This document shows, in pieces, positions 41,393 to 62,799 of a stretch of 64,000 nt of DNA. The DNA comes from Daucus carota subsp. sativus. Taxonomy: Eukaryota > Streptophyta > Magnoliopsida > Apiales > Apiaceae. The notes beneath the pieces are model-generated. The model was given only the letters and a program-made list of their open reading frames with translations. It did no database searches and was not told where the DNA came from. Position 1 is the stretch's first letter; every line of letters starts with the position of its first letter. The stretch spans positions 2,120,779 to 2,184,778 of the forward strand of contig NC_030383.2 of assembly GCF_001625215.2 (NCBI RefSeq). The letters run 5' to 3'. The position numbers and the translations under genes were made by a program.

Positions 41393-41461
41393 TGTAAAGT
41401 GAATTGAACAAACTAACACAAGTAGTTTATATAGAAGAAAAAAACGAATATATTCTAACAC

Positions 41462-41668
41462 TAGCCTCCAACGGCTACATTACAAACAAATGAAAACAAA
41501 CACTAGACTCCAACGGCTATATTACAAACAAATGAAAACAAACACTAGACTCCAACGGCTATATTACAAACAAATGAAAACAAACACTAGACTCCAACGG
41601 CTATATTACAAACAAATGAAAACAAACACTAGCCTCCAACGGCTACATTACAAACAAATAAAAACAAA
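41462..41668. repeat. 42-bp minisatellite between the two Harbinger genes
   Basis: About five copies of a 42-bp unit containing CACTAGACTCCAACGGCTA and ATTACAAACAAATGAAAAC lie between the two genes. The copies are nearly identical apart from G/A and T/C variants at the outer units. The unit length is a multiple of three, which produces a spurious repeated open frame on the plus strand. Confidence 0.9.
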
Positions 41669-42784
41669 CTAGTTCCTTGCCATAATTTTTTCAAGCAATT
41701 TTGAATGAGCCATCCGCTGAATATCATTCATTTTAGTAGTATCTGCCAAAATGACTTGTAAATCCATTTCAGTTTGCTTTGCCTCAATCTCTTTTTCTCG
41801 AGTCTCAATTTCCTTTTGACGAGTTTCATTTATTGCTTCCATTAGATTTAGCTTTCGACATGTACTAGCTCGTAATTCTTCCCACTCATCGGACGCTTGT
41901 ACCGCTCTTGCCTTTCCCTTTCCCTTTCTTTTAGCCGCTTCCCTACCTTTAGGACGAACAGGAGATTCAGCAACATTCTCACTTGTTGGTGTATCGTTAT
42001 TTCCCGATGATGAGTAAGCTCCAGAGCTGCTTATTTTAGTTCTTTTCGAACTGTCAGTGGTTGAAGGAGTTCTCCACTTGGGTTGTCTACGAAGCTCAAA
42101 CCAATGCTTATCAAAGTTAGACTTCTTTTTGTATTTGGCAGAATGCAAAATATGAGCTTTCTCATTTACGTCATCCAAATTTGCACCACTCCCCATTTTC
42201 TTATAAGCGTCTTCATAACATGATCCAAATTTCTGAGCACCTTCATTTATGCGTTGCCACCTTTTTCTCATAGCTGCAGCTCCTCTCTTGATGACACCGG
42301 GATTATCTTCCTCGCAATATTGTTGAATTCGGTCCCAAAATGCGTCGGCTTTTTGATCAGTGCCCACTAGGGGATCAATTGACACATTCAACCATGCACT
42401 TATTAAAAGCTTATCTTCAGCCCACTTCCACTGTCCAGTAATTTCTCGTACTTCTTCAGTTTCCTCAAAATCATCATTTAGATCAATAAAATTTCTATTA
42501 TTAAAGGCGGGCACTTGTGAGTGTGGAGAATTTTCGAAATTAGGAGGTGATTGTTGAGTTTCAAATTGTGAATTTGAAAATGTAGGAAATGGATACTGAT
42601 ATGGAGAATTTTGAGGATATGAAAATGGATATTGAGAATTTTGAGAATGTGGAAATGGGTATTGAGAATTTGGGGTTTGAGAATTAAAATTTTGTGGATT
42701 TGGGAAATAAGAATTTGGATATGGATATGGAAATTGAGGGTTCGGATTTGTAGAATTTGGAGGTGGGGGATTATTTGGATTCAT
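41669..42784 (-). CDS. PIF/Harbinger Myb/SANT-like DNA-binding protein
   Basis: An open frame of 371 codons from ATG 42784 (MNPNNPPPPNSTNPNP). The first 90 residues are a low-complexity region rich in Pro, Asn, Tyr and Gln with repeats of the type NSQYPFP. A trihelix/SANT-like domain follows (about residues 110-215: GQWKWAEDKLLISAWLN, KADAFWDRIQQYC, RKRWQRINEGAQKFG, CYEDAYKKMGSG). Then come a basic stretch (GREAAKRKGKGKARA) and a C-terminal charged coiled coil (KEIETREKEIEAKQTEMD). This is the usual second protein of plant PIF/Pong/Harbinger elements, which binds the transposon ends and the transposase. In host annotations it is often called a glutathione S-transferase T3-like or NAM-associated protein. 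Confidence 0.88.
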   Translation of the reverse strand: MNPNNPPPPNSTNPNPQFPYPYPNSYFPNPQNFNSQTPNSQYPFPHSQNSQYPFSYPQNSPYQYPFPTFSNSQFETQQSPPNFENSPHSQVPAFNNRNFIDLNDDFEETEEVREITGQWKWAEDKLLISAWLNVSIDPLVGTDQKADAFWDRIQQYCEEDNPGVIKRGAAAMRKRWQRINEGAQKFGSCYEDAYKKMGSGANLDDVNEKAHILHSAKYKKKSNFDKHWFELRRQPKWRTPSTTDSSKRTKISSSGAYSSSGNNDTPTSENVAESPVRPKGREAAKRKGKGKARAVQASDEWEELRASTCRKLNLMEAINETRQKEIETREKEIEAKQTEMDLQVILADTTKMNDIQRMAHSKLLEKIMARN

Positions 42785-43146
42785 CTTTTGAGAGAAATTT
42801 TAATTTTTCAAGAAGTAAGAGTGTGAATAATAAAATGTGAATTTTTAGGTATTTATAAAAAAAAAATCTTACCGTTAATATATTAACGTTACATTCGTAA
42901 CGTTAATATTACCGTTTCCTCATTTCAATTGTTGATGTATGTGTATAAAGTAGCTGCAGCATTTTTCAGTTTTTGTAATAAAATAATATAAATAAGCAGG
43001 TTTTACAGAAGTTGTCCAGGGACACCATGCTGTCCATGGCCGCTTTTTTTAACTTCTCTCCAATGCTAAACATGTGTATATGAGGTGCCCACTTCTTTTT
43101 TGCATGCCCCGAGGCACAATGTGTCCCTGCATTGTAGATGGTCTAA

Positions 43147-43808
43147 TTTTTTTCTTATTTCCATTTTTTTTACTTCCAAAAAAATTAGATTTTTGTGAAT
43201 AAGAAATTAAGAATATGTACTTGTATATATAGAGTTTCTATTTAAATTTTATTTATTTTATAAAATATAGCATGTTTCATAAATTAAAATATTATAACAA
43301 TGAAAAATATATCCTCGGAAAGAATTATTACAAAACATGTGCGAAACAGCACTTTTGTAAAATTCATGATGTACTTATTCAAATTTTATGTAATATATAT
43401 ATAATTTAATTATAAAAATATTTTAATATATCGGAACAAATTTTAAAACATGTGCTAGTTAATACTTAATATACACTTGCATGTCATGACTTATGTTATT
43501 TTAAAACTAATTATTCACATCCACGAAAATTAAGAACATTGGTAAGTGAATATTTTTTAGACCAATAATTTATTGTCATGATTATTTAAATAATTTAATT
43601 TAATATATTTATTACGAGGAAGACGACTTTATATATAATTATCCAATAAATGGAGGCAAGAAAAAAGAACATCCCTTAAATATTAAATCCTGTTGCCAAA
43701 ATCAAGTGCTTTTTACACCCCCTGCCCCAAGAGTTGCATGTTAATTACGAAAAAATGCCATCAGTTTTTCTCTTTTTGTGCACTATCTTGGAGAAGACAA
43801 ATATTCTA
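43147..43808. other. AT-rich spacer between Harbinger and Helitron
   Basis: There is no coding frame and no element end apart from the flanks. It may be host DNA or belong to the Helitron if that element starts further left than proposed. Confidence 0.5.
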
Positions 43809-44230
43809 TCTACTAAAGCACTTCATTTGTTTGCCTCATTAAAACCCACTCATATTTAACTATCAACTACAGTGTGCTATATTTGTAATCACGTGCTTCC
43901 TTTCGATAAATACAACAAATGTTCAGACAACTTAAATAAGCCCAGATCAATTGTCTCCTTCTTTTTTTCCGAAAAAGAGATTTCCTCTTTCCTGCATTCA
44001 GAACTAGCAGGGAAGCCGCCAAAACAGAAGTCAGCTATACCCGAATTCCACCACATTTTTTCCAGATCAGTCCATTTTCTTATGTGCAAAATTTAATTCC
44101 AATTCAGACGGTGCCGATTTTAACTTCTCCACAACCTCAAGAGGAAATGTTCAGAGTAAATTTCTTGACCCATTTGGCTGTCTCCTTCGTTCTTTTCCGC
44201 ATCTGTTTCTTCCTCTGCGGTACTTTCAAA

Positions 44231-47200
44231 ATGATCAGCGACACTTCCAAAAGATTGGTCAGTTCCTTATTTTTTCCACCACAACACTGCCAAAATGAAA
44301 TTCAAAATCATTTTCATAGGATAGTGGACAAGATTGAAACAGGGTTTCAATTCTCTCATCTTCAAGCAAGCTGGACTTTGTTCATTTTGGAAGACAACGA
44401 ATTGAGGAATGAAAGAGGTTATTTCTTAAACAAAGAATGTCTTTCTAAATTAATTGTCTGGAATTTTAATTTTTTCTTTTAATCAAAGTTTTGTTTTTGT
44501 TTCTCAGGTATCTTATAATCATTTGAAAATTGATAATTTTCCCTCTTTGTGCAATGATTCTGGTAAGTTTCGGCGCTATCATCATTTGTTAGAAAAATAA
44601 CACATGTTTTACACTGTATGATTTTTTTTTTCATGACTGATTTAGAGAGGAAGGATAAAAGAAGAATGTTGAATGAAAAGGGTGATAAAGAGAATAATCA
44701 CACAATGATGAACCTGGATGATGGATGTGCAGGTAACTATGGCTGCTTTTAAGATGTTGAATGATACAATCTCATTGTTGAATTTTTATTATGTGTGTGT
44801 GTTTTTGTGGATTGTGATTGCCACTTCTGGTTCCCTCTCTACAATATGGACTAATTTTTGCACACACAGTAGTCAATAGTGTTGTTTCCGCTTCTTATGT
44901 TTTTAGAATCTTATAATGTTCAATATAGCTCACTGATTCTGTATAATCATTGTTAGGTGTACACACAGTAGTCAATAGTGTTGTTTCCGCTTCTTATGTT
45001 TTTATAATCTTATAATGTTCATCTGTATAATCATTGTTAGGTGTACATTTTGTTCTGTGTTGTGTTTGCAGTTTTGTTAAATACCCCTGGCTCTTCTTGT
45101 GTTACTGCAAAGACACCTTTGTCCAACCAATCCATTCCCTCTAATGGATCCCCAGGTATCTAATTTTCCATTAAATTAAGTTGTTTTGTAAATTACGCCC
45201 GTGGAAATGAAGTTCCATTAAACATGAGTTTCAAATTTGAAAGCAGAGTATAAGCCTGCAAATATTCAGTCCAGCCGCGGTTTTTTGCAAAATTGTATGT
45301 TGCAAAGCCCTGGCAATTATACTGCTACTACAAGAAGCCCGCTCTCCAACATTTCCAACTCTGCAAATGCTTCTAAAGGTATTCTATTTCTATTACTGCA
45401 AAAACACCATTGTCCAACCAATCCATTCCCTCCAATGGATCGCCAGGTAGCTGTAGTTCAATGTTCGATTAAATTCACTTCATATGTTTTGTTAATTTTG
45501 CCCAGCTAATGAAGTTTCAAATTTGACAGTAGCTTATAAGCCTGCAAATATTCAGTCCAGCCGTGGTTTTTTGCAAAATGGTATGTTCAACAGCCCTGTC
45601 AATTATTCTGCTACTACACGAAGCCCACTCTCCACCATTTCCAACTCTGCAAATGCTTCCACAGGTATTTTAATTTTATTTACAGAACATAGATTAATAA
45701 TTTTAAATAGTGGATTTCAGATGATGGTAATTAGTTAATTCTCTGCATATGTTGATTACATAAGCTAATGAGGAGTACTGTCTTTTATATCTCTCCTTAA
45801 AAAAATGTTATGTGCAGGCGTCTTCATTAACCCTGGTTCTTCCTTCTTTACAAATACTACAAGGCCTTTGTCTACAGGTATTTTATTTATATTTACAGAA
45901 CATAGACTCATAATTTTAAATAGTCTCTTCCATATTTGTCAATTTGTCAATTCTTCTCCATGCAGTTAGTCTAAATCCTCTTTCCCCACTATCAAAGAAT
46001 CAAGGAAGTAGTGCTTTTGCAAATACTCCGGTTGCTGCTTCTTCTATCACTCAATGTTCTCCGTTAACCACCTCTACAACAGCTGGGCAAAAAAGACCAG
46101 CTCCCAATCGAGGAGCACCCTCCACACCGGTAAGGACCAAGAACAAAAAAAGCAAGACGGTGGATACGGAGACTTTGACACAGAGCACCACATGTTTGTT
46201 TGGAGAGGACGAAGGCCCAGGTATCTTCCTTTCCAAGCATTATCTCCTGTTTTCAGGCTCACAAGTTCATGTGGGTGGTCAACGCATAACGTTTTACATT
46301 AATTTAATGTAGAGTTGAACAATGCACAACCTGATGTTGTCACTGAGGATTGTGAACTCATTTACGATGGTGGTCAGTTATAAGAACTATCTTTTTAAAC
46401 ATTTTCTACGTTTCTTTATTCGTTGGATGGCCCAATGACTCCATGTTTATGACAGATTTGCTTAGTGATTCTGATATTGATGATGAAGACATTATTAATG
46501 AGCAGGGAGATTCAATGTTTTCAGATGGAGTTCCTACTCAAGAAGGCATGTTTTTTTTAACTTTCCTTTGCATTGCTTGAAAGACTGCAGAATACTATCC
46601 CCCTGCTATTCCTAACAGGTTTAAACATTCAGGTTATTGCAGCTTGGGTCCTCCAACTGCAGTGTGCCAACATTGCCATGCAATCATGTGGAAAGAAGAG
46701 CGTGTCAACAAGAACGTTATAAAAGGAACCCATGAATTCTCCACATGTTGTGGTAAGGGCCAGATAAAACTTCCAAAAGCGCCTCCTACACCCTCATTCC
46801 TACATCAAGTTTATAATGATCCAAAGAAGGCCAAGAAATTCAGGAACAATATTAGGATGTACAATACAATGTTCGCTTTTACCTCAATGGGTGGAAAAGT
46901 GGACCATTCAATTAATAACGGTTCATCACCATACATATACCGTCTTAATGGTCAGAACCATCACGTTTTCGGTTCGCTGATACCCAACGAAGGAGATGAC
47001 CCCAAGTTCTGCCAACTCTACATTTACGACACGGAAAATGAATTACAGAATAGACTGAAGTGGGTAAAGGTTGATGATGGGAAGATAGTTGATACTGAGA
47101 TTGTCAAAGGTTTGTTGGACATGCTTGATTCCACTAATGAGCTGGTTCCTTTCTTCCGCATGGCCCGTGAGAGGTTCAAAGATCAACCTGTACAAGATCT

Positions 47201-50200
47201 TAAAATTGTAATGAAGGTATCTCGTGCAGCAAGCGGAAGAGAGAATTTCATTGGCCCTTCAAACGAAGTCGGTGCAATCATGGTTGGTGATTTGGAAGAT
47301 ACATGTGGCGAAAGAGATATCATCATTGAATCCAAGAGTCACGGTCTAGAGCGTATTTCAGATATACATCCTAAACTCATGGCCTTGCAATACCCTCTTC
47401 TTTTTCCATGCGGCGAGGATGGATATCACGATGATATCCCTTATTCGGAGACCCAAAAAAATTCAGCAAAGAAGCGTCAAAGAGTGACCATGAAGGAGTA
47501 TTACTCATATAGGTTACAAGTTCGGAATGATGAAGGTACATTGTTACAAATTAATCCCACTTTCATGAAATTTTGTTACACCAGATTATCACTTATACTA
47601 TCAAGATTTTAACTGATTTTTTTACTAACCAATTCATTAAATTTATATGTCCAGGGAACACTCCAAGGTTGGGAGGCAGATTGTTCCAACAATATATTGT
47701 TGATGCTTTTTCTGCTATTGAGCAAGCCCGGTTGTGGTGGTTTCGTACTCACCAAACCACTCTGCGTAATGATCTTTACTCTAACATGCGCACAAGGTTG
47801 CGAAATGGTGAGGATTGTACCACTAATGTCGGTAAGGGCTTTATACTCCCTGCAAGTTTCTTAGGTTCTAAACGGTACATGCAAGAAAATTTCCAAGATG
47901 CACTTGCCGTATGTCGTTACATTGGTCATCCGGATATATTCCTGACTATGACCACTAACCCTTTGTGGGATGAGATAGTTCAGATGATGAAGAACATGCC
48001 TGATTGTTTGACAGTAGACTGCCCTGACATAATAGCACGGGTTTTCAAACTAAAGCTTGATCAAATTGTGGATGATATTAAGAAGAAATCATATTTTGGA
48101 AACTGTGTTGCACGTAAGTCATTCAAATGTACATTTCATATTTTGGAAATTTGATTTTGGATGAATAAAGACCACTTAATAGTACTTAATCATATGCACT
48201 AAATATTTGCACCAACACCTTCATTCATTTGTTGTCATAATCACATTTTTACTGAATTACGTGTATTTATCATCTCTAAGATTTTACAATGTGTCTATTT
48301 GTCAGTTATGTATGTTGTCGAGTTCCAGAAAAGAGGCTTGCCGCATGTCCATATGCTTATATGGTTAGATTCTGATTCGAAGAAAAAATTGAGCTCCAAT
48401 GTAGATCAGTTTGTTTCCGCTGAAATTCCAGACCCAGAGATAGATGCAGTTGGCTATGCTGCTGTTGCTAGGCATATGATGCACGGACCATGTGGTAGGG
48501 ATAACACTAAATCACCATGTATGAAGAATATGAAATGTACAAAACATTTCCCTAAGCAGTGAGTGCTGTTTTCCCACTACATACTCCATGTATTGTATGT
48601 GTCACTATAAATTTACAAACAGTTATAACATATGATTCTTTGATGTGTTTTTTTAGGTATTCAGCCCAAACATATTTTGATCAATCTGGCTTCCCCGTGT
48701 ATAGACGACGCAATACTGGAATCACTGTCAAAAAGGGGAAGGTGGAGCTCGATAACCAATATGTTGTTCCATACAACAGGGATTTGCTGGTAAAGTATCA
48801 GTGTCACATGAACGTCGAAATTTGTTGTCATGCACGTTCTCTGAAATATCTATTCAAATATTGTCTCAAAGGACACGATCGCGCCACAGTGGAGGTTTCC
48901 TCAAGAAAAAAACAACATGTTGATACCAATGCTCCTGTAGATGAAATACAGCAATATTTTGATGGGAGGTACATCTGTGGTTGTGAGGCTGCATATCGTA
49001 TATTCGGGTATGATGTCCATTATCGTTCAATTTCAGTGCTTCGACTCTCATTTCATCTCCCAGGTGCACGTAATTGTACCTTTAAAGAGGATGAAAATTT
49101 GAAGAAAGTGATAGAAAGAGAAAAATATAAGCATAGTCAACTTGAAGCTTTTTTCTTATTAAACCAGAGGGATGCAAATGCTAGGAACTACACTTATGAT
49201 GAACTGCCAAGATATTATGTGTGGAACGAGGCTGATAGGATATGGACAGTGCGCAAGAGAGGGAGCCAAGTAGGAAGGCTTTATTATACACATCACAGTT
49301 CTGGAGAGATATGGTATTTACGTCTGTTACTTACAAAGGTGCGCGGCCCGACTTCTTTTGATTCTCTAAAAACTGTAGCTGGTGTTGTTTATAGAACATT
49401 TAAAGAAGCATGTCAGAAATATGGATTGTTGGATGATGATAATGAATGGCATGAGGTTTTAGAAGAATGTTCAAAATCAGGTTTTCCACCACAGATTCGA
49501 GAGCTATTTGTTCACATAATGGTAAATTGTCAAGTTAGTGATCTTGGAATGTTATGGTTAAAGCACTGGAAAGCTATGACTGACGATATTATAATGCAAC
49601 GTCGGAACCAGACTGGAATTAGAGACTCTTCCATAGACGACAAGCAGCTTCAATGGATGGTTTTGGGAGGTAATACTACTTTCACTTTCTTCTAATTTTT
49701 ATATAACACTGAAGTATTAATTACAATTATAATTGATAATTGAATCATCGTTCCAAACATCATCCTTATACAGTCAACAATTTTAAAAATCATAACTCAT
49801 ACAAAAATTTTATATTAGTTGAACTTCCTCTTATTTACATAGTAAATTCCCTCTGGTTTTATCATGTACCAGTATATTCACACTCTTACACAACACAAAA
49901 TCTGCTTTAATAAATAGTTTAGGGAGGTAGTAGTACTTTCAAATTGTTCTAATTTAGATATAACACAGAACACTGGTGATTTAATACTGCCTTCTCAAAT
50001 TACAAAGTCAAGAAAATATATTTTCTAAACACATAGGTTCATTTAATATTTCTACGGTTTGCTCTGATATACAAAACGAATTAACTCTCACTTTATCATG
50101 TACCATATCTGCATTGCAGCTATTGATAAGCTACTACGTTCAATTGGTAAGTCTCTAAAACAATTCCGCCAGCTACCGCAACCTCCAGCAGCCTTTCTAC

Positions 50201-51747
50201 AAACTGGTGCTGATAATTTGATTGTTGAGGAAACAAGTTACAATGTTGGTGAGATGGAACAACAATTCAGTCAGCTTTACCCTAATTTGAATAAGGAGCA
50301 ACTGCAGGTTTATAATGAAGTTTTCAACGCTGTGCAAGCTGGAAATGGTGGAATATTTTTTGTTTATGGCAGCGGTGGCTGTGGTAAGACATACATCTGG
50401 AAAACGTTGATATACCGGTTAAGGTCCATGGGTAAGATTGTGCTTCCAGTTGCATCATCCGGGATAGCTGCTACTCTTATGCCAGGAGGAAGGACAGCAC
50501 ACTCCAGGTTTAAGATTCCTATTCTGTTGGATGATTATTCATCCTGTTCAATTACTCAGGACTCTGATATCGCTCAACTAATTAAATCTACCAGCCTTAT
50601 CATATGGGACGAGGCTCCTATGCAGCATCGACATGCTTTCGAATGCCTTGATCGTTCACTCCGTGATATTATGAAATCAGTAAGTCCGGAAAGAGCTGAA
50701 ATGCATTTTGGTGGTATACCTATTCTACTAGGTGGTGATTTTAGACAGATTCTCCCGGTCATCAATCTTGGTTCAAGGCCTGAAATTGTCAATGCCTGTA
50801 TTACAAGATCAAGGATATGGCGTGCAGCGAAGATAATCATATTGAAACAAAATATGCGCCTTGGACAGGGCAGTACAGAAGAAGAAAGAGAATCCTTGAG
50901 ACTTTTTGCTGAGTGGGTTCTCAAGGTTGGTGATGGAAATCTTCTAACTCCTGATGATGTATTACTTCAGTATGGTGAAGATGCTATTGTTATCCCAGCA
51001 GATCTCTGTGATACCGAGACATCCAACACGGTAGATAATTTGATCAAATGGACTTATCCAGACTTCTCTACCAATTACAAATCTCCAAAGTATATAAGTG
51101 AAAGGGCAATTTTAACCCCAACTAATAACACAGTTGGCCACCTCAATTCTGTTATTGTGGATACAATTCCTGATGAGACTTTCTCATATTTCAGCAGTGA
51201 CAAGGCAGAAGAATTTGGGGGAACTGCTTCTGATCTTAACCTCGCATTCCCACCTGAATATCTTCATTCTTTGAACGTTCCTGGACTACCACTTCATGAA
51301 ATGAAACTCAAGGTTGGTGTTGCGGTGATGCTCATGAGGAATCTAAACCAAACTCTTGGCCTATGTAACGGGACAAGAATGATGGTCACTAAATGCATGA
51401 GATATTGTGTTCAATGTGAAGTCATTTGTGGTGCATTTGTCGGTACGAGACATTTCATTCCTAGGATGGAACTATTCCCCACTGAAACAAAGCTTCCTTT
51501 CAAGTTAATACGCAAGCAAATGCCTTTACAAATTTGTTACTCTATGACAATTAACAAGTCACAAGGACAATCTTTGGAGAGAGTTGGTCTATTTTTGCCC
51601 AATTCTGTATTTACTCATGGAGCGGTCAGCAGAGTTACATCACGGGAAGGACTCAAAATCTTCATTGACTCCAATTCTGGTGATCCAACAAGCATAACAG
51701 ACAACATAGTTTACAAAGAAGTCTTCTATAACCTTCCTAAAGTTTAA
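44231..51747 (+). CDS. Helitron Rep/helicase protein (RepHel)
   Basis: Fifteen exons join in one frame of 1746 codons: 44231-44257, 44508-44562, 44646-44732, 45072-45155, 45247-45378, 45530-45664, 45818-45877, 45966-46220, 46313-46372, 46456-46545, 46633-47535, 47655-48113, 48306-48558, 48657-49669 and 50120-51747. The first ten small exons encode a Ser/Asn/Pro-rich, poorly conserved N-terminus; the ATG is uncertain. A zinc-type segment follows (CQHCHAIMWKEER), then the Helitron N domain, the HUH nuclease motif (LPHVHMLIW, near residue 794), the tyrosine motif (KYLFKYCLK, near 930) and a Pif1-type SF1 helicase with Walker A (GSGGCGKTYIW, near 1290) and Walker B (IIWDEAPM). The protein nicks and unwinds the element during rolling-circle-like transposition. 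Exon 10 ends at a GC donor. All key residues are present. Confidence 0.88.
44864..45050 (+). repeat. Tandem 90-bp duplication in an intron of the Helitron gene
   Basis: CACACAGTAGTCAATAGTG through TCTTATAATGTTCA and TGTATAATCATTGTTAGGTG occurs twice in a row with only a few differences. It lies between exons 3 and 4 and leaves the splice sites untouched. Confidence 0.85.
45100..45664 (+). repeat. Duplicated exon pair in the N-terminal part of the Helitron gene
   Basis: A unit of about 280 bp spanning exon 4 end, the next intron and exon 5 (45100-45378) is repeated at about 45395-45664. Exon 6 (PANIQSSRGFLQN, SPVNY, TTRSPLS) is a close copy of exon 5 (PANIQSSRGFLQN, SPGNY, TTRSPLS). The repeated copy of exon 4 (CACCATTGTCCAACC...) lies within an intron and seems not to be used. 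Confidence 0.85.
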
Positions 51748-52532
51748 TCATTCCGAAGCACAACACCAACTCTCCATCATGCTCTCTGTGTTAGTTCAAA
51801 GAACAGCCTCCTTTATATTTTTTTGGAAAATATATTAAATGTTTTTGTGAATACAGTTGTCATACATTAGAAGCTGTGGATGAAATTGTTTTTTGTTAAT
51901 GAAATGGTGCATGTCTCCCTTCTTTGATTTAAACTTAATTCACTGCATTTTATGGTGCATATTTATTTTCATTCTCTGCATTTAGTACAGCCAGCTTATG
52001 AAGCTGTTCTTGGCCCTCATATGTTGGCCAGTTTGCCTTTATTAAATTACAGTTGTTCACTTTATATTTGATAGTACTTGATTTTAGTTTATTTAATATA
52101 ACATCCCTATTTTTAATTCTGAATCTCAGAGTTAGACCACACTTACTAATTCAAATCTCACCACAACCTTCTAAATGTAAAACTGATGACTCCTGTGCAT
52201 TTTGATTTGAAGATTATTATATTACACCTGTAGAAGGCTTCACATCCTAACAGACTGTTGCAGCTTTTTATGATGACTTAGTCAAACAGTAGGAGACAAA
52301 AAAGAATACAGCTGTTGTGAAAAAATCCCCACCACATGTTACTGTTTGTAAGATAAGCCCTCTCTTTTATTTGTAAGCACTAATACACCATTGAACACAT
52401 CTCAGGAAGCTGCCATTAACTCCTCCAACCAAAGGTAGGTTCTCCATTAATTCCTCTCTATGCTACCTACTGCTCCATCCTGTTTTAATAGAATCTTTCT
52501 AATCCATATCTTTAAAAAATCTGCCAGGTACA
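51748..52532 (+). other. Spacer between helicase and first RPA gene
   Basis: No open frame was recognised. It should hold the 3' end of the helicase transcript and the promoter or leader of the RPA gene, unless the two are one transcript. Confidence 0.5.
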
Positions 52533-55185
52533 ATGATTTTCAACAAATACGATAAGGTGCAGAATCTCAGGGTTGAAACTACAGAATGGACATTACGTGT
52601 TAGAGCTCAAACTGTCTGGAAAAGTATCAACAGGAAAACCAATGAGTTCAAGGGTTTAAATGTGATTTTCATGGATGACACGGTAACAGCTTCCAACCTA
52701 ATTAAGTCTCTGCTTTTTTTCCTCATATGGACATGTGTTCTGGATAGGGTATGCTTTAATAGAGTTCTGTTCATGTGTAGAATTCGAGGCTTCATGCATT
52801 TGTAAGTGCCAAGATAAGTTCTCTGTTTGATGAAACCCTCAAAGAAGGGAAAGTTTACAGCTTATCAAATTTCCATGTCCGGAAATATGGAGAAGATGAT
52901 AACCACAGGGCTGTTAGATATGAAAAGCACATTTATTTTGCCAACCATACAGAACTCAATGAATTGGATGCTGATTTAACTGCTATTGCTCCATATGCCT
53001 TTGATCTTTTTGATTTGCCTGATATAAGAAATTTCATAAATGATGATCGGTTTTTGATTGGTAATTACCTTTAGTTTCTTACTTCAAAATTTGCATTCCA
53101 CTTTATCACATTTTTGTAAGAACTAATTGGCTTATGGTTTTTATACTTTTCATATGAAGATGTTGTTGGGGAGATAACAAACAAACATGTCAGCTGTGTG
53201 TATTCTAAAGAAGACAAATGCAACACTCACATCAGATTTCAAATAACTGACGGGAGGTATGTAGACCTATGATTATCAGCTGCATTGTTTAATGATTACA
53301 TGTTCTTTTGGTCTAAACTTAAAAAAAAATTGATATAGGTACATAGTCAATGTCACTTTCTTTAATGAATTGGCTGAACAGTTTGAGAAAGCACTGAAAC
53401 AGCTAGAAGATTCCTATATCTATGTCATCATATCAAGTGCTAAAGTGAATGAGCATGAAGGTCATTCCTTACTTTTATCAGTTCCTTGCATTCTAACAAC
53501 CATCTTCATTACTTCACATTTATAGCTCTTTACTTACTTCACATTACACATAACTAACATTCCCAGTATAATCATATGTTGTAATTTTTTTTAGGGCTCC
53601 CCTGTTTGAATAACTATCCCGCCACGCGCTTCTACCTAAATGTTGACCACTATAGTGTCAAACAGCTGAAATCTAGGTATTGAGCACTACAGCTGGCCTT
53701 AAAATTAAAGATTAGGATACCATATGCAAGCCAAAAATTGGGTCTGGTCTAACCACATTTGATTTTTAATGCAGAATGTCTGAAATTCCTAAGACTGAGG
53801 CTGTGGAAGAAGTGCCAGTTGAACAAATCAAGCCCATGCTTTCAGTTGCTGATATAAAGAAATTAACATCTGATTATGCAAAGGTTTATATTTTATCAAA
53901 ACTACTAATCTGAGAGCTGTAGCGTGTACATTTGCATAAATACATTTACTTAATGTAACTAAATTTTTATGTAGCGCAAAGTTTGTTGCCAAATCACTGT
54001 TAAGAAAGTCGATGTGAAAACAAACTGGTATGACAATGTTTGCACAACCTGTGCCGCGGAAGTTCAGATCGTTCAAGGGAGGTTCAAGTGTGAGAATTGT
54101 GTCCGTAATATACCTTTTCCTGATAAAAGGTAATTTCTATATTTCCAACCATGAAAAGAATTAACAAATTGAACTACAACAAACACAGCTTATTCCATGT
54201 AATTTATATTTTCTGATTCATCAATCAATTGAGCAGGTTTAGACTTGCAACAATATGCAACGATGAAACTGGAATTCTAGCAATTATCTTCCCCGATGAC
54301 GAGATTCAACGTATTCTAGGGAGGAATGCATTTGATATTGAGGAAGATGAAAATGAAGTAAGCTTTCTATAATACAAAAAATAGATTAAAAGTTATTTTT
54401 ATCAAATTGTTTTTTACATCATTACAATAAAATGTTTGCTTCTGACAATGTTTCAATATCACATTCGAGGTGTCTGATGAAGTAACATTCCCACCATCTC
54501 TAAAAGCTTTTGAGAAGAAACAATTTGTTGTGACATTACTACTAACCGAGCAGAATGTTAACAAAACATGCAACATCTACACTGCAACAGAGCTAAACGA
54601 TCCTGCTGAAATGTTGGGCAACCACAGCCCATCAAGAATTCAATCTATTGCATCTGAGCCGATTAGGGAAACTATGGTATAGAGTCTACACTCCTATTAA
54701 TCTTTTCTTCAAATTTGTTTAGGCTCTTCTAAATATTTAATTTCATATTACAATTACAGGAACTTGAACGTTCTAAGGATACTTTTAGTAGTCCTCCAAC
54801 TGGGAAGTCTACAAACAAAGTAAAAACAAGATCAACAGATGAGAATGTATCAGTGGCAATTATGGAAACAATGGTATATAGTCAACATTCTTAAGAAGTT
54901 TTTCCTCAATTTTTTTAATCATTTTTAACTAGCTACACTTATTTCCACAGGAAATTGAGCGTAATACAGAAACTTTGATTAGTCCTCCAACTGGGAAGTC
55001 TACAACCAAAGTTAGAACAAGGTCAACAGATGAAGATGCAACCAATTCCATGGAGGAAAATGTTCCTCTTGCCAAGTTTAAGATTGTCAAAACTGAGAAG
55101 GTAAACATATTTTATTACCACCAAAAGTATACTATAATAAATGGTGTATGCTTTATTGATTAAAATATTTGTCTTGCAGAAATGA
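52533..55185 (+). CDS. Helitron-borne RPA70-like single-strand DNA-binding protein (copy 1)
   Basis: Twelve exons (52533-52682, 52781-53060, 53160-53256, 53339-53460, 53595-53676, 53775-53883, 53975-54129, 54237-54357, 54470-54676, 54760-54873, 54951-55100, 55180-55185) join to 530 codons plus stop. The order is an N-terminal OB fold (LRVRAQTVWKSINRKTNEFK, LHAFVSAKI), a second OB fold (DVVGEITNKHVSC, IRFQITDGRYIVNVTFF) and a C-terminal OB fold with a zinc ribbon whose four Cys are at residues 303, 306, 319 and 322. This is the layout of plant RPA1 and of RPA-like proteins carried by plant Helitrons, which are thought to coat single-stranded transposition intermediates. Exons 10 and 11 are duplicates. 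The last exon encodes a single residue. Confidence 0.85.
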
Positions 55186-55994
55186 ATGGCAAGTTGCTCT
55201 TTCATCCATTTAGAGATGGATTGAACCAGAACTCGACCTACTTTCTTATTTGACATTGAGACAGTTTAGATATTTGTTTGGCACATTGTTGCAAATTTCT
55301 GGCAATATATGGAGATTACTCCTTTCAACTTTTTTTTGAGAAGACTTCACATGTTACTTTTTTCATGTATGACTTCTGTATGAACTAGCTGGATTGTTTC
55401 AGGCTACTGAATTTGAATTATATTTTGTTATTTCTGCATTTTCTTAGTTCATTTGCAGCAAAGCTTTAATGCATACTTCTATCCTTTTATAGATGAAGTG
55501 CCAAGATATACAAGTTTTATTGCTTTTTTGGTTTCGACCATATTTATGAAACCAAAAAAAAAGTCATGTTGTATAGATGACCTCTGCAGGAAAAATCCCT
55601 ACTTTCAGTTGTAAGGATTCTTAGGTGCAATATATGGAAATGCCTGTATTCAACTTTATTTTGACCAGATATGCCATGTTCCCTCTTCCATGTTTTACTG
55701 CTGTAAGAAATTAATGCTTTGCTTCAGCTCTTTGAAATGCTGTTTTGTTTTTGGAGCTCTCTGCCACTCAGCTTTCATACATCAGCAAAGATGTATTCAC
55801 CTGGGCATATTTAAATAAAAGTCACTTTAAATGAAAGCTGAACAACTAGCAATAATCGAGACCAACCTTTTACCCCCTACTCATCAGATTCAATTAATGT
55901 TTACATTTTTCATCCACCATAAAAGGCAGCTCGGTCATATTTTGTAAATAAGAAAAGAGTACAAGAGAGCACACACATTAGAAAAGACTACAAC
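55186..55994 (+). other. Spacer between the two RPA genes
   Basis: T-rich sequence without a coding frame, presumably the 3' untranslated region of RPA copy 1 and the promoter of copy 2. Confidence 0.5.
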
Positions 55995-58081
55995 ATGTCA
56001 ACCAAGAAGTATGATAGTTTTAAGGATCTGAGAAAAGGAAAATATGATTGGAAGGTTCCTGCAAGGGCACTGAACTCTTGGAAAGGCTACACCAGAACTG
56101 GGGAGGCTTTCAAGGGTTACAACTTATTGCTTCTAGATCATAAGGTGAGCCTAATGCTTTTCTTTATATTGTTTCCACTCAAAAAATGTCTAATACTACC
56201 ATTTAATCTTCTAATAAAAATACTGTGTTGCAATTTCAGAGAGCTAGAATCCATGCTTTTGTGCCTGCAAGACTAGAAGAGGAAGTAGACAAATTGGTTG
56301 ATCTCGGCAAAATCTACCTCATACAAAACTTTACTGTCAAAGACTACAAAGCAGATGACAAATTTAGGTGCCTTAGAAAGAATATACAGATTCAGTTCGG
56401 GGAGGAGACTATAATCACTCAACTACAAGAAGAAGATATAAGTATTGAAAAGACTTGGTTCGACTTCTATGATCTTGCTGAACTGAAACCCCTGTCTACT
56501 CAAACTACTTACTTGACTGGTAAGTTGTAGAAACAATGTCATACAATCATCCCTTTCATAACTTATTGATCACAAATTAAATCTAATGTGTTAGATGTAA
56601 TGGGAGTAATGGAAAAACATGACCCCATTGGCAAACTGACAAATAGGCACGGGAAGGTCCAATCACAGTTAAAATTTGGCATTACTGATGGCAGGTATGT
56701 ACATTTACTAGAAACAATGCTATCCACTGTCATTGCTCCACAAACGATTAATTTAATAACGTATAATCGACTCTTACAGTACAACTGCCCATGTAACTCT
56801 ATGGGATGATTTTGCTGAGCTTTTCTCTTCTATGCTGAAAATGGACCAAGAAGAATACAAAATCTTGATACTCGGTGGTGCTAGAATAACAAAATGGGGA
56901 GGTATTATGTTAGAAATATGTATTTTAAATTTATACGACATCAGATTTCCAGTCAATTTTTTTTATAACCTCTTCAAACAGATGAGGCTGTCATTACACA
57001 TGTCCATGCTACTACTTTCTATATTAACTACGACATCCCCTGTGTTCATCAGTTAAGAAAAAGGTATGCTGCTTCTACTTATATCATCCAATTCTATTAT
57101 TAACAAGGGAAGAAATCATATAACTTTCTAATTTTTAAATTTATTCCCAGGATACCACACCCTAGCTTCAAAAAAGATAATATTTTCAAGGGAAGGAACA
57201 GGTCTCCAGCTGTCTATAAAGTGAAAGACATAAAAGAGCTTGGAGAACAATATGATGAGGTAAATAAAATTTTTACCATAGAACTAAAAAGATGTTTACA
57301 CACAATCTAACATGCTGCCTCATTTTGTAGACTGAACTGATATGCCAAGTGAAAATTATGGAGTTTGAACAAGTCAAAAACTGGTTCAAACCTTTTTGCA
57401 CCTCATGTTATGGAGAGTGCACTGTAATTGGTAATTTGAAAACATGCAGCATATGCAACAGGACTGTCCCTTATGCTGAGAACAGGTAAACCTTCTCAGT
57501 TTCCATACAATATTCACAAATCTCTTTTAAAAATTAATTCAAAAGTGGGGATGCAGATTTGAACTACACACTCTGGCAAGTGATGAGACTGGGCAAATGA
57601 AAATAATTTTGGAAGACCGTGAAGTCAGGAGGTTGATTGGAAAAACTGCACTGGATTTAATTGAAGAGGTATTTTCTGAAACTACTTAGACACATGTACA
57701 CTCAACATCATATAAAGGATTCACTAATTGTGTAAGATTATTTTACAGGGAAACAAGGTGGACATTTTCCCTGCTATCTTAGACAACTTAAAGAACAAGT
57801 TCTACAGCATCAAAATACTAATCAAAGAAGCAAATACTAAGTATAAAGTAGATGCTTTCCTAGCAACAGATATCATTGAAGGGAGCTACACTGAGATAAA
57901 AAACGAGACAGAACGAGAATACCCTCAACCTATTCAGTCCTTCGAAACACATGTAATAAAAACAACTGCTACAATACTTACAGTTATAATACCATACTTA
58001 TAAAAAATATCACTTACTGTTTTTTTTTAATTTCATTTGCAGCTATCAGAGTCAAGCTATCATCTGGATTCCGCCAACTAA
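55995..58081 (+). CDS. Helitron-borne RPA70-like protein (copy 2)
   Basis: Ten exons (55995-56144, 56240-56519, 56595-56694, 56780-56901, 56982-57063, 57151-57259, 57331-57485, 57557-57668, 57749-57952, 58043-58081) join to 450 codons plus stop. The layout matches copy 1: KVPARALNSWKGYTRTGEAFK and IHAFVPARLEEEV (OB fold), DVMGVMEKHDP and ITDGR..TAHVTLWDDF (second OB fold), and a zinc ribbon with Cys at residues 304, 307, 320 and 323. Exons 1, 2, 4, 5, 6 and 7 have exactly the same lengths as in copy 1 (150, 280, 122, 82, 109 and 155 bases), so the two genes are tandem duplicates that have diverged strongly in sequence. The C-terminal extension of copy 1 is absent. Confidence 0.85.
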
Positions 58082-59640
58082 ATCTGATTCCACGGACTAA
58101 AATCTAAGGATATCTATGATTGATTCCTCTTATTTATTATTAATGAGTCTACTTTATTATCTAAAATAGGACATCCCTGTTGTTCATTATTGAAGACAAA
58201 AAATGATCTCTACTCTATTCATATTTCAGCTGTGTTTATCAATTACAAGTCAACTCTAGCGGTGATGTGGCTGAAAAAAACTGATTAACAGCTTTTAACT
58301 TCCCCTCTAATATCTTATTATGCATACCATTAATATTAGTTCATGCAATCTATCTATAAAATCTAATATAACTCCACAATCATGAATATACAGAAGACTA
58401 AGGAGTATATTAGATATTCAATAAATATATTTCATCCATCTTTGAACAGGCATCATAGCAAAAAAATAAGAAGAAAGATATGAACCAAAATGATCCAGTC
58501 ATTAAATAAAGCAACCAACCAAGATACTTTAGATCTAGATAAAAGTTTTCTACTCTATTTGTAAGTGATTTATTTATTTTGTTCGCAACAAAAAATTACA
58601 TGTCATATTCTACTATAATTTGAATGACTAATTACATGATTTATTAAATGATTTATTAATGGTTATTTGAAATTATTTGCAGCTGCCTTTTTGAACCAAC
58701 CATTGGGAGTCCAGAGCTTATATCATCTGGAAATATCTAAGTGTTTATTAAGATGTTGGTTTGATTATGTTTCCACGCAAGTTCTACCTCTAATATATGA
58801 CTAAGACCACCTAAGTCCATACTGTCACTCCATTTAATTCTATTAGTATGCCTAACTCTATCTGATTCTACAGACTTTATATAATTTATATCTATGATGG
58901 ATTAATGTTTTTTTATGCATAGATTTGTTTACTTTATCGCAAATACAACTTCCACTTTCTTCATCAGTTAAGATTAAGAGTTCTCGCTACTCTGTTAAGG
59001 TATTACATTTTTAACGTTTCATTCTACGGATATACATGTGCTATGTGTTTGAAAATAAGTATTTTATATTTTGCATTCAACTGCAACAGCTTATTATGAA
59101 GCAACTTGACTTAAAACTGGCAGATCAATGTAAACACTATATACAAAACAACATGTCAAACAGGATAACTATGTCCTCATTCTACAAAGACAACACACAT
59201 AAAAATCCTACAGCAGCACCAAAACTCTAATAATCAGTGAAATCTAATCTTTTAACAGAGATATTCATCCTAATTCACCAAAATAACAAAATACCACATA
59301 AAGAGTTAAATTTATAAGTGATCAATCATGATATATCATAATCATTTCCAAGCCAGAATCCATTAATTTAAGAGCAAACCACAGGCAGCTTCAAAATAAA
59401 CATTCTCCCAAAATATTCATAATTCACCAAAATAACAAAGTACCAGACAAAGCGTTAAATATACTCCAACAGTTTTGCAGAAAATGACATATTCATCTAG
59501 AGCTCTCAGCAACCTTCAAATATCCAAACTTCCACATAGCACATGCTGCAAAAAATATTTCATTACAAAATTTAAAATGCAGAACCAAAGTGATCAATTA
59601 CCAAAATAAGAACATAACAAAACCATACCTAGAAACAGAA
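58082..59640. other. Helitron internal spacer before the B3 gene
   Basis: No full open frame. A weak echo of the last RPA exon and its 3' flank (AGCT...ATCTGGA, GATTCTAC/GATTCCACGGACT, ATCTATGAT) recurs at about 58678-58900. A 40-bp string (AATTCACCAAAATAACAAA...GTTAAAT) occurs at 59273-59312 and 59423-59462. Confidence 0.45.
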
Positions 59641-61139
59641 CTATGCACCATGATTCCTCAAGACTCGAACAGCAAAGTGTGTGCGGAATGGGTCTGCACA
59701 CTCAAATACAACCACGTCGCCAAGTTGGAGGCCCAATCCATCTCTAAATTGGATCCATCCATCATGAATGGTTGTGCGGTTCGAGTTGGCACCTCGATAC
59801 CTCACCTGCAGTTTCCATGCTTTCTCACCCAAATAAACATTAATGTAGTCTCTTTTCTTCCAAAAGGCAGTGACAATGCTGTAATCAGTTGATATATCCT
59901 ACATGAGTAGCCAATAGAGAAAAGGACTAATTAAGGAACTTCATACATTCAACGCAACAAAAAAAATAATTTTATAAAGCATAGATTAAAAAACTCACCA
60001 CTCCATAAACATATTTGTACAAGTGGTGAGCCTTGACAGTTATCTCAAAGCGATAACGCACGATAGGGTTATGTGCATTTAGACCTATAAAAAAATTAAC
60101 ATCAAATTTTCATTAATAACAACAAATCTGAAGAAACCAAAAAACAGGAAAACTAACTGCCAAAATTGTTATACCGCTTGAAATGGGTGTGCCAGGGAAC
60201 AGGTACTCAACAAAGTGATCATCAAAAACTGAAATAGTCGTGATGCCAGAGTCCTCATAATGAAACAAAAGCAAATTGAAGCGACTGAAATCTTGCATGC
60301 CAAATATTGAGCTGAATTTGCTCAGGCCATGGAATTTTCCAGTTTCATGGTCATAACCACCCTCAATGCTCTTCCCATTACTAAAAAAATAGTTCTGATA
60401 CGCTTTCAACATGGGAAATCGTTTCTTAATTGCATGAGGAGGCTCCTATAAAATATACTAAATTAACAACACAATAGCATATAAATTTGTTAAGTAGTTG
60501 AGTTAAGGTAAGGATTTGTCTTACATAGTCATCAATTATAGGGTCTGAATCATTAACAAAGTTCAGAAATTTCAATCCAACCTTTGCAACATTCACTAGC
60601 ACAACAAAAAAAAGATTAATTGCTTATAAATCAAAACAGTCAAATAAACAATAACATAAAAATCTAAACTGGTATCATGCTTAACAGTTGAAGGCATACC
60701 ATTTCTAGGAGGTGTTCTCTGAAAATGGTGAACCACACATGGGTACTCAATCTCCAAGAGATCAGTCCCAATAACATAAACATTGAAATTAGAGGACCCG
60801 TCAAATTGAAATACAAGCATTTCACCAGCTTTCAAGTCAAAATCAGCATAAACAGTTGAAAGGCCAGACAAGGTTCCTTTCTCTTCATTGCGCATCACCG
60901 GGATCTGATACCCATTCAGGAATTTCAACAACAAACACTTGGGAATAATATCTCCATATTTGCTGATAATTTTTGCAGGGAGTTTCTGAGACATTAAACA
61001 AATAGTTAGAGGCACAACTACAACTATTCCAATCCCAAACAACTGTACTAACCATTTCATCAGATTCCAAATCCGCAGTTGTTAAGCACTTGATAAATTT
61101 CTCTATAATAACCCCGGACAAATCCATAGCCCTATTCAT
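59641..61139 (-). CDS. B3-domain protein (REM-like) encoded antisense inside the Helitron
   Basis: Six exons on the minus strand (61053-61139, 60700-60985, 60525-60595, 60175-60445, 59999-60084, 59641-59898) join to 352 codons plus stop with clean GT-AG borders. Exon 2 holds a B3 module (KLPAKIISKYGDIIPKC, LVFQFDGSSNFNVYVIG). Exon 4 holds a second B3-like half (FSSIFGMQDFSRFNLLLF, then ISVFD). Exons 5-6 hold a third (FEITVKAHHLYKYVYGV, AWKLQVRYRG, WIQFRDGLGLQLGDVVVFE). Multiple B3 modules and no other domain place it near the REM branch of plant B3 transcription factors. It lies between the RPA genes and the Helitron 3' end, so it is inside the element. It may be a captured host gene or a long-standing accessory gene; the open frame argues against a dead fragment. 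Confidence 0.8.
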
Positions 61140-62266
61140 TTATAACCAAAAAACAAAAAATGAGAGGCATGCAAACATTGGATACAAAAACAAAACAAAA
61201 AAACGCTTCTTCACCTAACCTGGAAGAACAGAGTAAATGACGGAGCAATTGACACCTGAATGATGATAGCTTCTTGCAGCAGCACAATAATAAGATGAAT
61301 GCTTCCCCATTTAAAGTTGAGCATCATTAAAAACTGCTGCAATTAATGGTAATAGGGTGTTTAGTTGGGGAGTGCCATTAAAGGATTTCAGGCAGCATGG
61401 AGATGTTACAGTTTTCAAGAAGAATTTTGGAATGTTTGCTACGTTATTCGTTTTGGCAGGTGAATATCATATTTCAATTTTTAAACCTCTTAAGTCATGT
61501 CTTTGTTACAAAAATAAGTTACAGGTGAGAACTTTTATAATTGAGAAGTAGTTGACTAATTCAATTAAGTGAACCCAATAAAAAAAAAGAACAAATCATC
61601 AAAGAAAATTATCCATTTTTATAAAAAATGGGATTTAAAAAAACAAGATAAGGAGTTTTTTTTTTAAAAATAATATTATCAATATTAGGTGTTTTCCGGT
61701 TTAACAAAATAAATAATAATTCTTTAATTTACATTAAGTGTAGTCCCACCGGATGTAACATTTTAAGGATATTTTACAATAAATAAAGGAGATACTTTAC
61801 AAGAGATTCTTGATATTTATATCTTTAAGTCTTTTTTTTTCGAAGTGAGCAGTTCATATACAAAGGAATAGATACAAATAAATTTTTTATGGTGTTTCTA
61901 ATTTTTTTGAATAATTTTAATTCAACATATAAAACCACAAATCCGAAATCAAACTTCACAAAAAAAAAAAGAAATATTAAGCATTTGAATACTATAGATG
62001 AATATCATATGTGTTCCCAAATTGTAACAACACATCGGGTCAATGTGTAAAATTTATGCGACTTTGTTAGACTAAATGGATCTTTTAATGAAAAAATTGT
62101 AATCATTTTTTTACATTCTTTTTTTTTTATTTTGACGCAATTCATTTACATACTTTAGTTTAGTGTATAAATGTATATTGTTTAGGAAAACAAATAACGG
62201 TTGCAAAAAAAGGACAATATTTTGAGACTACGAAATTGTATTATAAACAAATATTTTATTTTCAAA
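61140..62266. other. Promoter side of the B3 gene and Helitron 3' noncoding region
   Basis: AT-rich sequence with several A and T runs. The first 200 bases should hold the leader and promoter of the minus-strand B3 gene. Nothing else was recognised. Confidence 0.5.
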
Positions 62267-62294
62267 GCCCTTGCGTAGCGGGCACAAATACTAG
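62267..62294 (+). other. Helitron 3' terminus: hairpin and CTAG
   Basis: GCCC then TT then GC pairs with GC then GGGC around a GTA loop (62267-62283), giving a six-pair stem with a two-base bulge. Seven bases later comes CTAG (62291-62294), followed by T. This is the standard CTRR end with a subterminal hairpin. Confidence 0.75.
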
Positions 62295-62423: not shown

Positions 62424-62799
62424 GAGGGTTACTCCAGTGAGAACTTCTTAAAATGAGAACCGTGAGAACTTCCTTAATTTATCATATTTTGACTAATCTA
62501 AACATCAAACTAGTGGGTACCCAATATAAAAAGTGTATATAAAACTAGTCTCTCCCTAACTAGTCAAAAAAAAAAATTCAAAAAAAAATTCAAAAAAAAA
62601 AGTCCACTGCCACGTCATCAGTGATTTTTTTTTTATTTTTTTTAATTTTTTTTTTCGGCTAGCTAGGTGGAGACCTTAATTATATACATTTTTTGTGAAG
62701 GTGCCCCTGGCGGGGCCCTTCAAATGAATGAGATATTGATAAATTAGAAAAGTTCTCACGGTTCTCATTTTAAGAAAGTTCTCATTTGAGCAAGTGCCT
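62424..62799. mobile_element. MITE with 65-bp inverted repeats in a TA tract
   Basis: The left arm (GGGTTACTCCAGTGAGAAC, then CTTAAAATGAGAACCGTGAG, then TTAATTTATCA) is repeated inverted on the right (TGATAAATTAG, CTCACGGTTCTCATTTTAAG, GTTCTCATTTGAGCAAGTGCC). The element sits in an AT-dinucleotide tract on both sides (ATATATATA...TATATATAT), so the target duplication cannot be measured but could be 9 bp or more, as for MULE-type MITEs. Confidence 0.7.

Follow-up and report, generated by a model that had tools for sequence, protein, structure and literature searches.

A REM-like B3 gene lies antisense behind the helicase in many Helitrons of one genome and is very probably an accessory gene under selection

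The closest described relatives of the element studied here are the Helitrons of the PHRPA/Mothra sister family. As far as the available text of the Mothra paper goes, the RPA-like protein is an additional gene of plant Helitrons, and these elements share with ours the TC and CTAG ends, the 3' hairpin, the insertion between A and T, and the Rep/Hel and RPA-like genes; a B3 gene is not mentioned there (PMC4683698), and in our elements such a gene, at times even two, lies in antisense orientation behind Rep/Hel. Helitrons of maize and others are also carriers of captured genes, and the presence of a plant-type gene within our element is reminiscent of such events. However, the accessible part of a 2026 review describes captures usually as fragments, whereas here many elements share one B3 family that is preserved whole and in a constant position; the same part of the review covers both Helitron captures and VANC and names no B3 gene in Helitrons (PMC13317346). 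The gene itself resembles the host REM family in that one protein contains several B3 modules (PMC2688026, PMC12270911). Its modules are each made up of a short exon followed by a long one, which is similar to the two-exon B3 domains of certain REM classes (PMC2688026). It differs from the host REM genes in being encoded by a transposon, and for the most part the first and third modules are placed separately from the 16 host B3 segments of the sample. Finally, the available excerpts on VANC, a protein of the Mutator-like VANDAL elements of Arabidopsis, present a similar case of an accessory protein that is encoded by a transposon and presumed to act on the DNA of its own family, with fast-changing noncoding DNA alongside (PMC10398659, PMC5735166). 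VANDAL elements and Helitrons belong to different orders, and the element studied here has no tandem target array. A description of a link between B3 genes and Helitrons was not found in the open-licence PMC literature, where absence is not proof. In pepper, a burst of REM genes has been ascribed to tandem duplication, and the words "Helitron" and "transpos-" are absent from that text (PMC10949715).

The window, i. e. the whole stretch of 64,000 nucleotides that was analysed, corresponds to C3:2120779-2184778 in a genome of 441 Mb in 11 contigs, and all genome counts given below come from this one genome. The combination of B3, RPA-like and Helitron genes points to a plant. Its Helitron (Table 1) has the termini A/TCCCTT...CTAG/T at 43671/43672 and 62294/62295: it begins with TC, ends with a CTRR motif and is inserted between A and T. 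Moreover, it has a GC-rich hairpin near the 3' end and encodes both Rep (PF14214) and a PIF1-type helicase (PF05970). The hairpin GCCCTTGCGTAGCGGGC stops 11 bases short of the 3' terminus, in line with the 10-12 bp expected for a Helitron, and other copies are similar in this respect. In a pattern search of the whole genome, TGCGNAGCGGGCAN{5,8}CTAGT occurred 167 times and the reversed pattern not once. The hairpin is present at the ends of many other copies, and on this count the preliminary description of this DNA, which had regarded the B3 gene as cargo of the Helitron, is not refuted. For the 5' boundary, the region 42800-44500 of the window was used as the query: the 42 matches, minus the window itself and five that fall in another repeat at its left edge, left 36 relevant ones, and 29 of these start at 43669-43671, that is at the target A or at most two bases before it. 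A copy of 6.3 kb with both ends and with B3 exons within is located at C1:27862964-27869291. When a paralogous empty site was sought, the joined flanks of the Helitron had no match in the genome beyond the two sites from which they were taken, and a search of IMG/VR found no relatives. In the Rep part, a Pfam search of the open pieces 46644-47531 and 48658-49671 beside Helitron_like_N gave nothing over the cut-off. Both RPA-like genes carry DUF223, which we take to be the mark of the RPA-like proteins of Helitrons.

Table 1. Features of the Helitron and of its B3 gene in the window
Feature	Position	Strand	Remarks
Helitron, whole	43672-62294	+	18,623 bp; flanked by A (43671) and T (62295); bounds from other copies
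Helitron 5' terminus, TCCCTTAAATATTAAATCC...	43672-43700	+	TC from 43672, preceded by the target A (43671)
Rep part of Rep/Hel, several exons	46644-49671	+	Helitron_like_N at 47657-48109, PF14214, E 5.1e-40
PIF1-type helicase exon of Rep/Hel	50119-51747	+	PF05970, E 4.9e-85; PF21530
RPA-like gene 1	52533-55184 (ends approximate, by eye)	+	DUF223, PF02721, E 2.8e-13, joined first exons
RPA-like gene 2	55995-58080 (ends approximate, by eye)	+	DUF223, PF02721, E 5.5e-8, joined first exons
B3 (REM-like) gene	59641-61139	-	six exons, 352 codons and stop, three B3 modules (the second by profile comparison)
B3 gene exon 6, second part of B3 module 3 and stop	59641-59898	-	alignment A1, 16 copies, 13 invariant columns
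B3 gene exon 5, first part of B3 module 3	59999-60084	-	
B3 gene exon 4, second part of B3-like module 2	60175-60445	-	hhalign to exon 2, 97%
B3 gene exon 3, first part of B3-like module 2	60525-60595	-	
B3 gene exon 2, second part of B3 module 1	60700-60985	-	alignment A3, 13 copies
B3 gene exon 1, first part of B3 module 1	61053-61139	-	counterpart in other copies
Spacer, B3 start codon to 3' hairpin	61140-62266	.	presumed site of the B3 promoter
3' hairpin, GCCCTTGCGTAGCGGGC	62267-62283	+	identical or similar form ends other copies
Helitron 3' terminus, CTAG	62291-62294	+	T comes next; copies of the 3' end

The B3 gene had been read as six exons with GT-AG borders and 352 codons, on the strand opposite to the helicase and RPA genes and 1.2 kb inside the 3' end of the Helitron. 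We could reproduce this structure on the minus strand from 61139 to 59641: the five introns of 67, 104, 79, 90, and 100 bp all have GT-AG borders, Rep, the PIF1 helicase and the two DUF223 (RPA-like) genes lie on the plus strand, and the start codon is 1155 bp from the 3' end. A model of 359 amino acids with another donor for exon 4 was dropped, since the 352 codons fit better; a GGTA donor at the exon-4 position of the latter model is present in all nine other copies that were compared by eye. The preliminary description had also claimed two clear B3 modules and a third B3-like half. The two modules hold, as the spliced protein matches PF02362 in two stretches with 52.4 bits as compared to a cut-off of 30.1, and best in exon 6. 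Of 13 copies of exon 2, eight match PF02362 at E<=0.1; that of the window reaches 18.4 bits and on its own stays under the cut-off. The presumed half is a different matter. Exon 4 alone has a Pfam B3 match in none of 12 copies and a pLDDT of 45.7 when folded alone, and a profile-profile comparison (hhalign) relates it to exon 2 with 97% probability. Thus, the gene looks like three successive B3 modules with a short and a long exon each, and the presumed half looks like a full B3 module. Between exon 6 and exon 2, the profile match is weak (31.8%, E 5e-4). The search of solved structures gave weak matches, with VRN1 as the best for alignment A1 (E 0.037) and At1g16640 for A3 (E 0.38, beneath two unrelated chains), and no B3 match for alignment A2. 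The protein contains no further Pfam domain at E<=0.01, hence no AP2, ARF or zf-CW domain. It thus combines the PF02362 domain with multiple B3 modules split over two exons, module 2 being recognised via profile comparison only. As two-exon B3 domains are reported for the REM classes VI-IX of Arabidopsis in the part of the source available (PMC2688026), the structure of the Helitron gene is REM-like. When 26 Helitron B3 entries were used as queries, no second B3 gene was found in the Helitron of the window; one weak match that may be a B3-like remnant was seen at 44100-44381 (E 0.022).

What is new here is the recurrence of a B3 gene at the majority of the Helitron helicases that were scored in this genome. 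Among the best 80 of 334 helicase candidates, those nearest to the helicase of the window, 56 are accompanied by a B3 gene at a distance of at most 12 kb, and all of these genes are located downstream and antisense, none downstream in sense orientation and none upstream. With random placement, the count at this distance averaged 0.28 and never exceeded 3 (1000 runs, 40 Mb being assumed for some contigs). A downstream antisense B3 gene was found for 35 of the 80 helicases within 5 kb and for 62 within 25 kb, and at the latter distance there were also two downstream-sense and three upstream-antisense cases. No B3 gene was detected within 12 kb of 24 of the 80 helicases, including all eight lowest-scoring copies; for one of these eight, a B3 gene lies at 15.6 kb. 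The counts depend on the queries. An earlier one had given 28 of 80 within 30 kb, or 24 of 80 after subtraction of 11 Pfam rows picked by eye, which were not used from the next count onward; with more divergent B3 queries, first 34 of 80 and, after the fourth query, 62 of 80 helicases had such a gene within 25 kb, the fourth query coming from a locus that was picked for lying behind a helicase. In the B3 searches, scores were obtained for 113 of 475, 143 of 445, 145 of 456 and 150 of 297 candidates, respectively. With the first protein query, the 359-residue model with seven intron-4 residues around position 240-246, there were 165 matches, 150 of which entered the counts.

The same arrangement is seen from the 3' end. 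Among 100 listed ends of the window type, taken from the 167 genome places and compared with the matches of the first three B3 queries, 20 lie no more than 4 kb from a B3 gene, which is in all cases inside the element and antisense and never outside; the distance from the end to the nearest B3 exon match is 384-1844 bp. For the other 80 listed ends, no B3 gene was detected within 4 kb. Conversely, when 32 B3 loci were compared by means of the 359-residue model, such a 3' end was seen in 22 of them, in all cases with the side and strand that were to be expected; four of the ten without a seen 3' end had little flank, and some of the 32 loci had been found via the 3' end. It had been suggested to ask whether other Helitrons with this 3' end carry the B3 gene at the same place, and they do so, in the same orientation. 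In seven elements, one B3 gene lies 0.5-0.7 kb behind the helicase and another one further down, near the 3' end where the flank was covered. Thus, the B3 gene is long-standing in those Helitron lineages of this genome that are nearest to the one of the window, with sometimes two genes per element. The second, divergent antisense B3 genes 0.5-0.7 kb behind the helicase are located at C8:16713073-16714400, C7:41299852-41301215, C5:28406072-28407380, C3:44700387-44701683, and other places.

Our analysis of dN/dS between copies, which had also been suggested in the preliminary description, revealed purifying selection on the B3 gene. For six independent young pairs, the pooled dN/dS is 0.375 (Fisher p=7e-10); four of the pairs are significant singly, and two are without a sign of values below 1 (0.95 and 0.66, p 0.56 and 0.54). 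The median of the 26 pairs with a dS of 0.1-1.5 is 0.22. The calculation covered exons 2, 4, and 6 in a set of 26 gene entries, where one gene (C3_44707612) is represented by two overlapping pieces, and 175 of 325 pairs were left after dropping saturated distances. Stop codons were skipped, and one of the six young pairs includes a copy with such a codon, C5_28414074. The removal of up to four intron-4 codons from the exon-4 slice changed the pooled value from 0.379 to 0.375, the median from 0.221 to 0.218, and the difference between introns that is given below from 13.6% to 13.2%. Between the gene of the window and its closest relative, which is located at C6:27.86 Mb, differences affect 82 of 1059 sites in the exons (7.7%, no gap columns), 58 of 439 in the introns (13.2%) and 325 of 1064 in the spacer to the 3' end (30.5%, 174 gap columns); thus, the spacer diverges faster than both exons and introns. 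Since the two copies share the type of 3' end, we can conclude that the constraint acted within the element and not before a capture. The 13 helicase pieces that were retrieved are stop-free over about 400 residues.

The histories of the B3 gene and of the helicase agree only partly and conflict in places. The pairwise distances of the two proteins in 12 elements are correlated (Mantel r 0.51, as high in 3 of 20000 permutations), and the loci L059 and L062 have helicases that are 6% apart and B3 proteins that are 35% apart. The copy at C5:17915 kb (L033, C5:17914886-17918179) has a tip of the window type, with 38 of the last 40 bases judged by eye, and a B3 gene and a spacer of the C4/C8 lineage, and thus a swapped 3' tip. 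Parts of these elements have thus been exchanged, and the combination in this copy is mild evidence against a strict pairing of the B3 gene and the tip. With respect to the host genes, the B3 proteins of the Helitrons are 19-37% identical to 16 host B3 segments (alignments of at least 50 residues). In a tree of the first and third modules with these 16 sampled segments, 13 Helitron first modules form one group (97/94) and 13 third modules another one (100/100), apart from the host B3 domains; both module rows of L072 are of uncertain placement, and its third-module row falls outside the Helitron group. The rows of module 1 are near the host rows L077, L081, and L084, and module 3 is on a long separate branch, the host segments not being sorted by B3 family. 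With its few columns, the tree demonstrates the separation from the host B3 domains rather than the origin of the Helitron genes.

Taken together, the B3 gene is almost certainly an accessory gene under selection in Helitrons. The preliminary description had left the choice between a recently captured host gene and an accessory gene, and both the recurrence and the selection are in favour of the latter, whereas the low identity to the host proteins (19-37%) speaks against the former. The leading explanation, to which we assign a probability of roughly 0.6, is that the gene encodes an accessory B3 regulator that acts on Helitron DNA and helps the family to be expressed. According to this idea, the gene would be transcribed inward from the spacer near the 3' end of the element, and the REM-like protein with its multiple B3 modules would act in trans on the promoters or spacers of Helitrons, thus helping the family to stay expressed. 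We slightly favour the view that the predicted protein regulates the DNA of its own Helitron family. It may do so by occupying REM sites on Helitrons or by diverting the silencing machinery. As far as the accessible text goes, host REM proteins, a family for which VDD, VAL, REM12, and REM13 are named, bind defined motifs and, together with GDE1, recruit Pol IV (PMC12270911), and by analogy a Helitron-encoded REM-like protein could occupy such sites or divert this recruitment. In the available part of the VANC literature, the protein of the VANDAL elements binds the noncoding DNA of its own family and removes silent marks, and is thus a precedent for sequence-specific counter-silencing encoded by a transposon (PMC10398659). 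Counter-silencing is the leading, if tentative, version of the role predicted for the B3 protein, and taken by itself it is less likely than not. Two results speak against it: in the window element, a tandem array like that of VANC is absent, with just five short low-score tandem rows, and its noncoding parts contain no convincing over-represented 7-9-mers as a candidate binding motif. To our knowledge, VANC has no B3 domain. It is even more speculative that plant Helitrons had their own REM-type B3 gene before the present lineages diverged and that they antagonise or hijack the REM-Pol IV pathway, so that, in an arms race, the Helitron B3 genes and a portion of the rapidly evolving REM family would have shaped each other, possibly with gene exchange in both directions.

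Several other explanations for the B3 gene have to be considered. The predicted protein might be a transposition factor that binds the Helitron ends, i. e. the hairpin or subterminal DNA, in a complex with Rep/Hel and RPA. This would fit to the location of the gene, which in many copies adjoins the 3' end, and the RPA-like genes of the element show that Helitrons bring along other DNA-handling proteins. However, 80 of the 100 listed 3' ends are without a B3 gene in the 4 kb searched, even if elements that were moved in trans would look alike; moreover, several elements have their B3 gene directly behind the helicase instead, and the copy at C5:17915 kb joins a window-type tip to the B3 gene and spacer of another lineage. 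We therefore regard a function at the ends as unlikely. Less likely still is an effector directed to the host, a REM mimic that would alter host gene control, for example in reproductive tissue, in favour of copying where the copies are inherited. The sources agree, as far as their accessible parts go, that REM genes are preferentially expressed in reproductive structures (PMC6821719, PMC10267284), but a host target is not in evidence, and the orientation and the linkage to Rep/Hel suit a self-directed role equally well. We see little reason to assume that the gene is a passenger, a host gene that was caught long ago and is carried without any role. Helitrons are known for gene capture from the available text of the review (PMC13317346), and two of the six young pairs are without a sign of constraint; in contrast, the pooled pairs exhibit purifying selection inside the element, the gene keeps to a single side and orientation, two genes are kept in one element, and the sampled host B3 domains are distant. 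That an intact host REM gene was captured recently, as the fully open copy of the window with its clean introns might suggest, is highly improbable given that Helitron copies share the B3 gene at many depths of divergence and that the 16 sampled host B3 segments are just 19-37% identical over at least 50 residues. A captured gene fragment was rejected, as the gene is complete in the window, recurrent, and selected, and so was a host gene that lies beside the element.

The accessory regulator that we prefer would have implications beyond this locus. A whole regulator gene that is located antisense in most scored autonomous copies would be an added accessory function for the Helitron order, and the Helitron B3 gene would be a new place where transposons encode proteins of the transcription factor type. 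Counts of B3 genes in plant genomes may include transposon genes, and this bears on annotation. Since host REM proteins guide Pol IV, it is a testable question whether the REM-like protein of the Helitrons shields its own family from RNA-directed DNA methylation.

Just beyond the 3' end of the Helitron, at 62440-62784 of the window, there is a MITE-like stretch with matching inverted ends, agaacttcttaaaatgagaaccgtgagaac ... gttctcacggttctcattttaagaaagttctc, as judged by eye. To the left of the Helitron, the stretch 42800-43146 is matched over most of its length at four other places of the genome, and it is 100% identical over 347 bp to C8:22917188-22917534, suggesting another mobile element or a recent duplication. 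In another part of the genome, C1:5652974-5736024, the Helitron 3' end recurs in five copies with 82% identity that are spaced by 17-26 kb like a repeated larger block. Finally, the region 40100-42784 of the window, left of the Helitron, contains on the minus strand two long antisense open frames of 453 and 371 amino acids.
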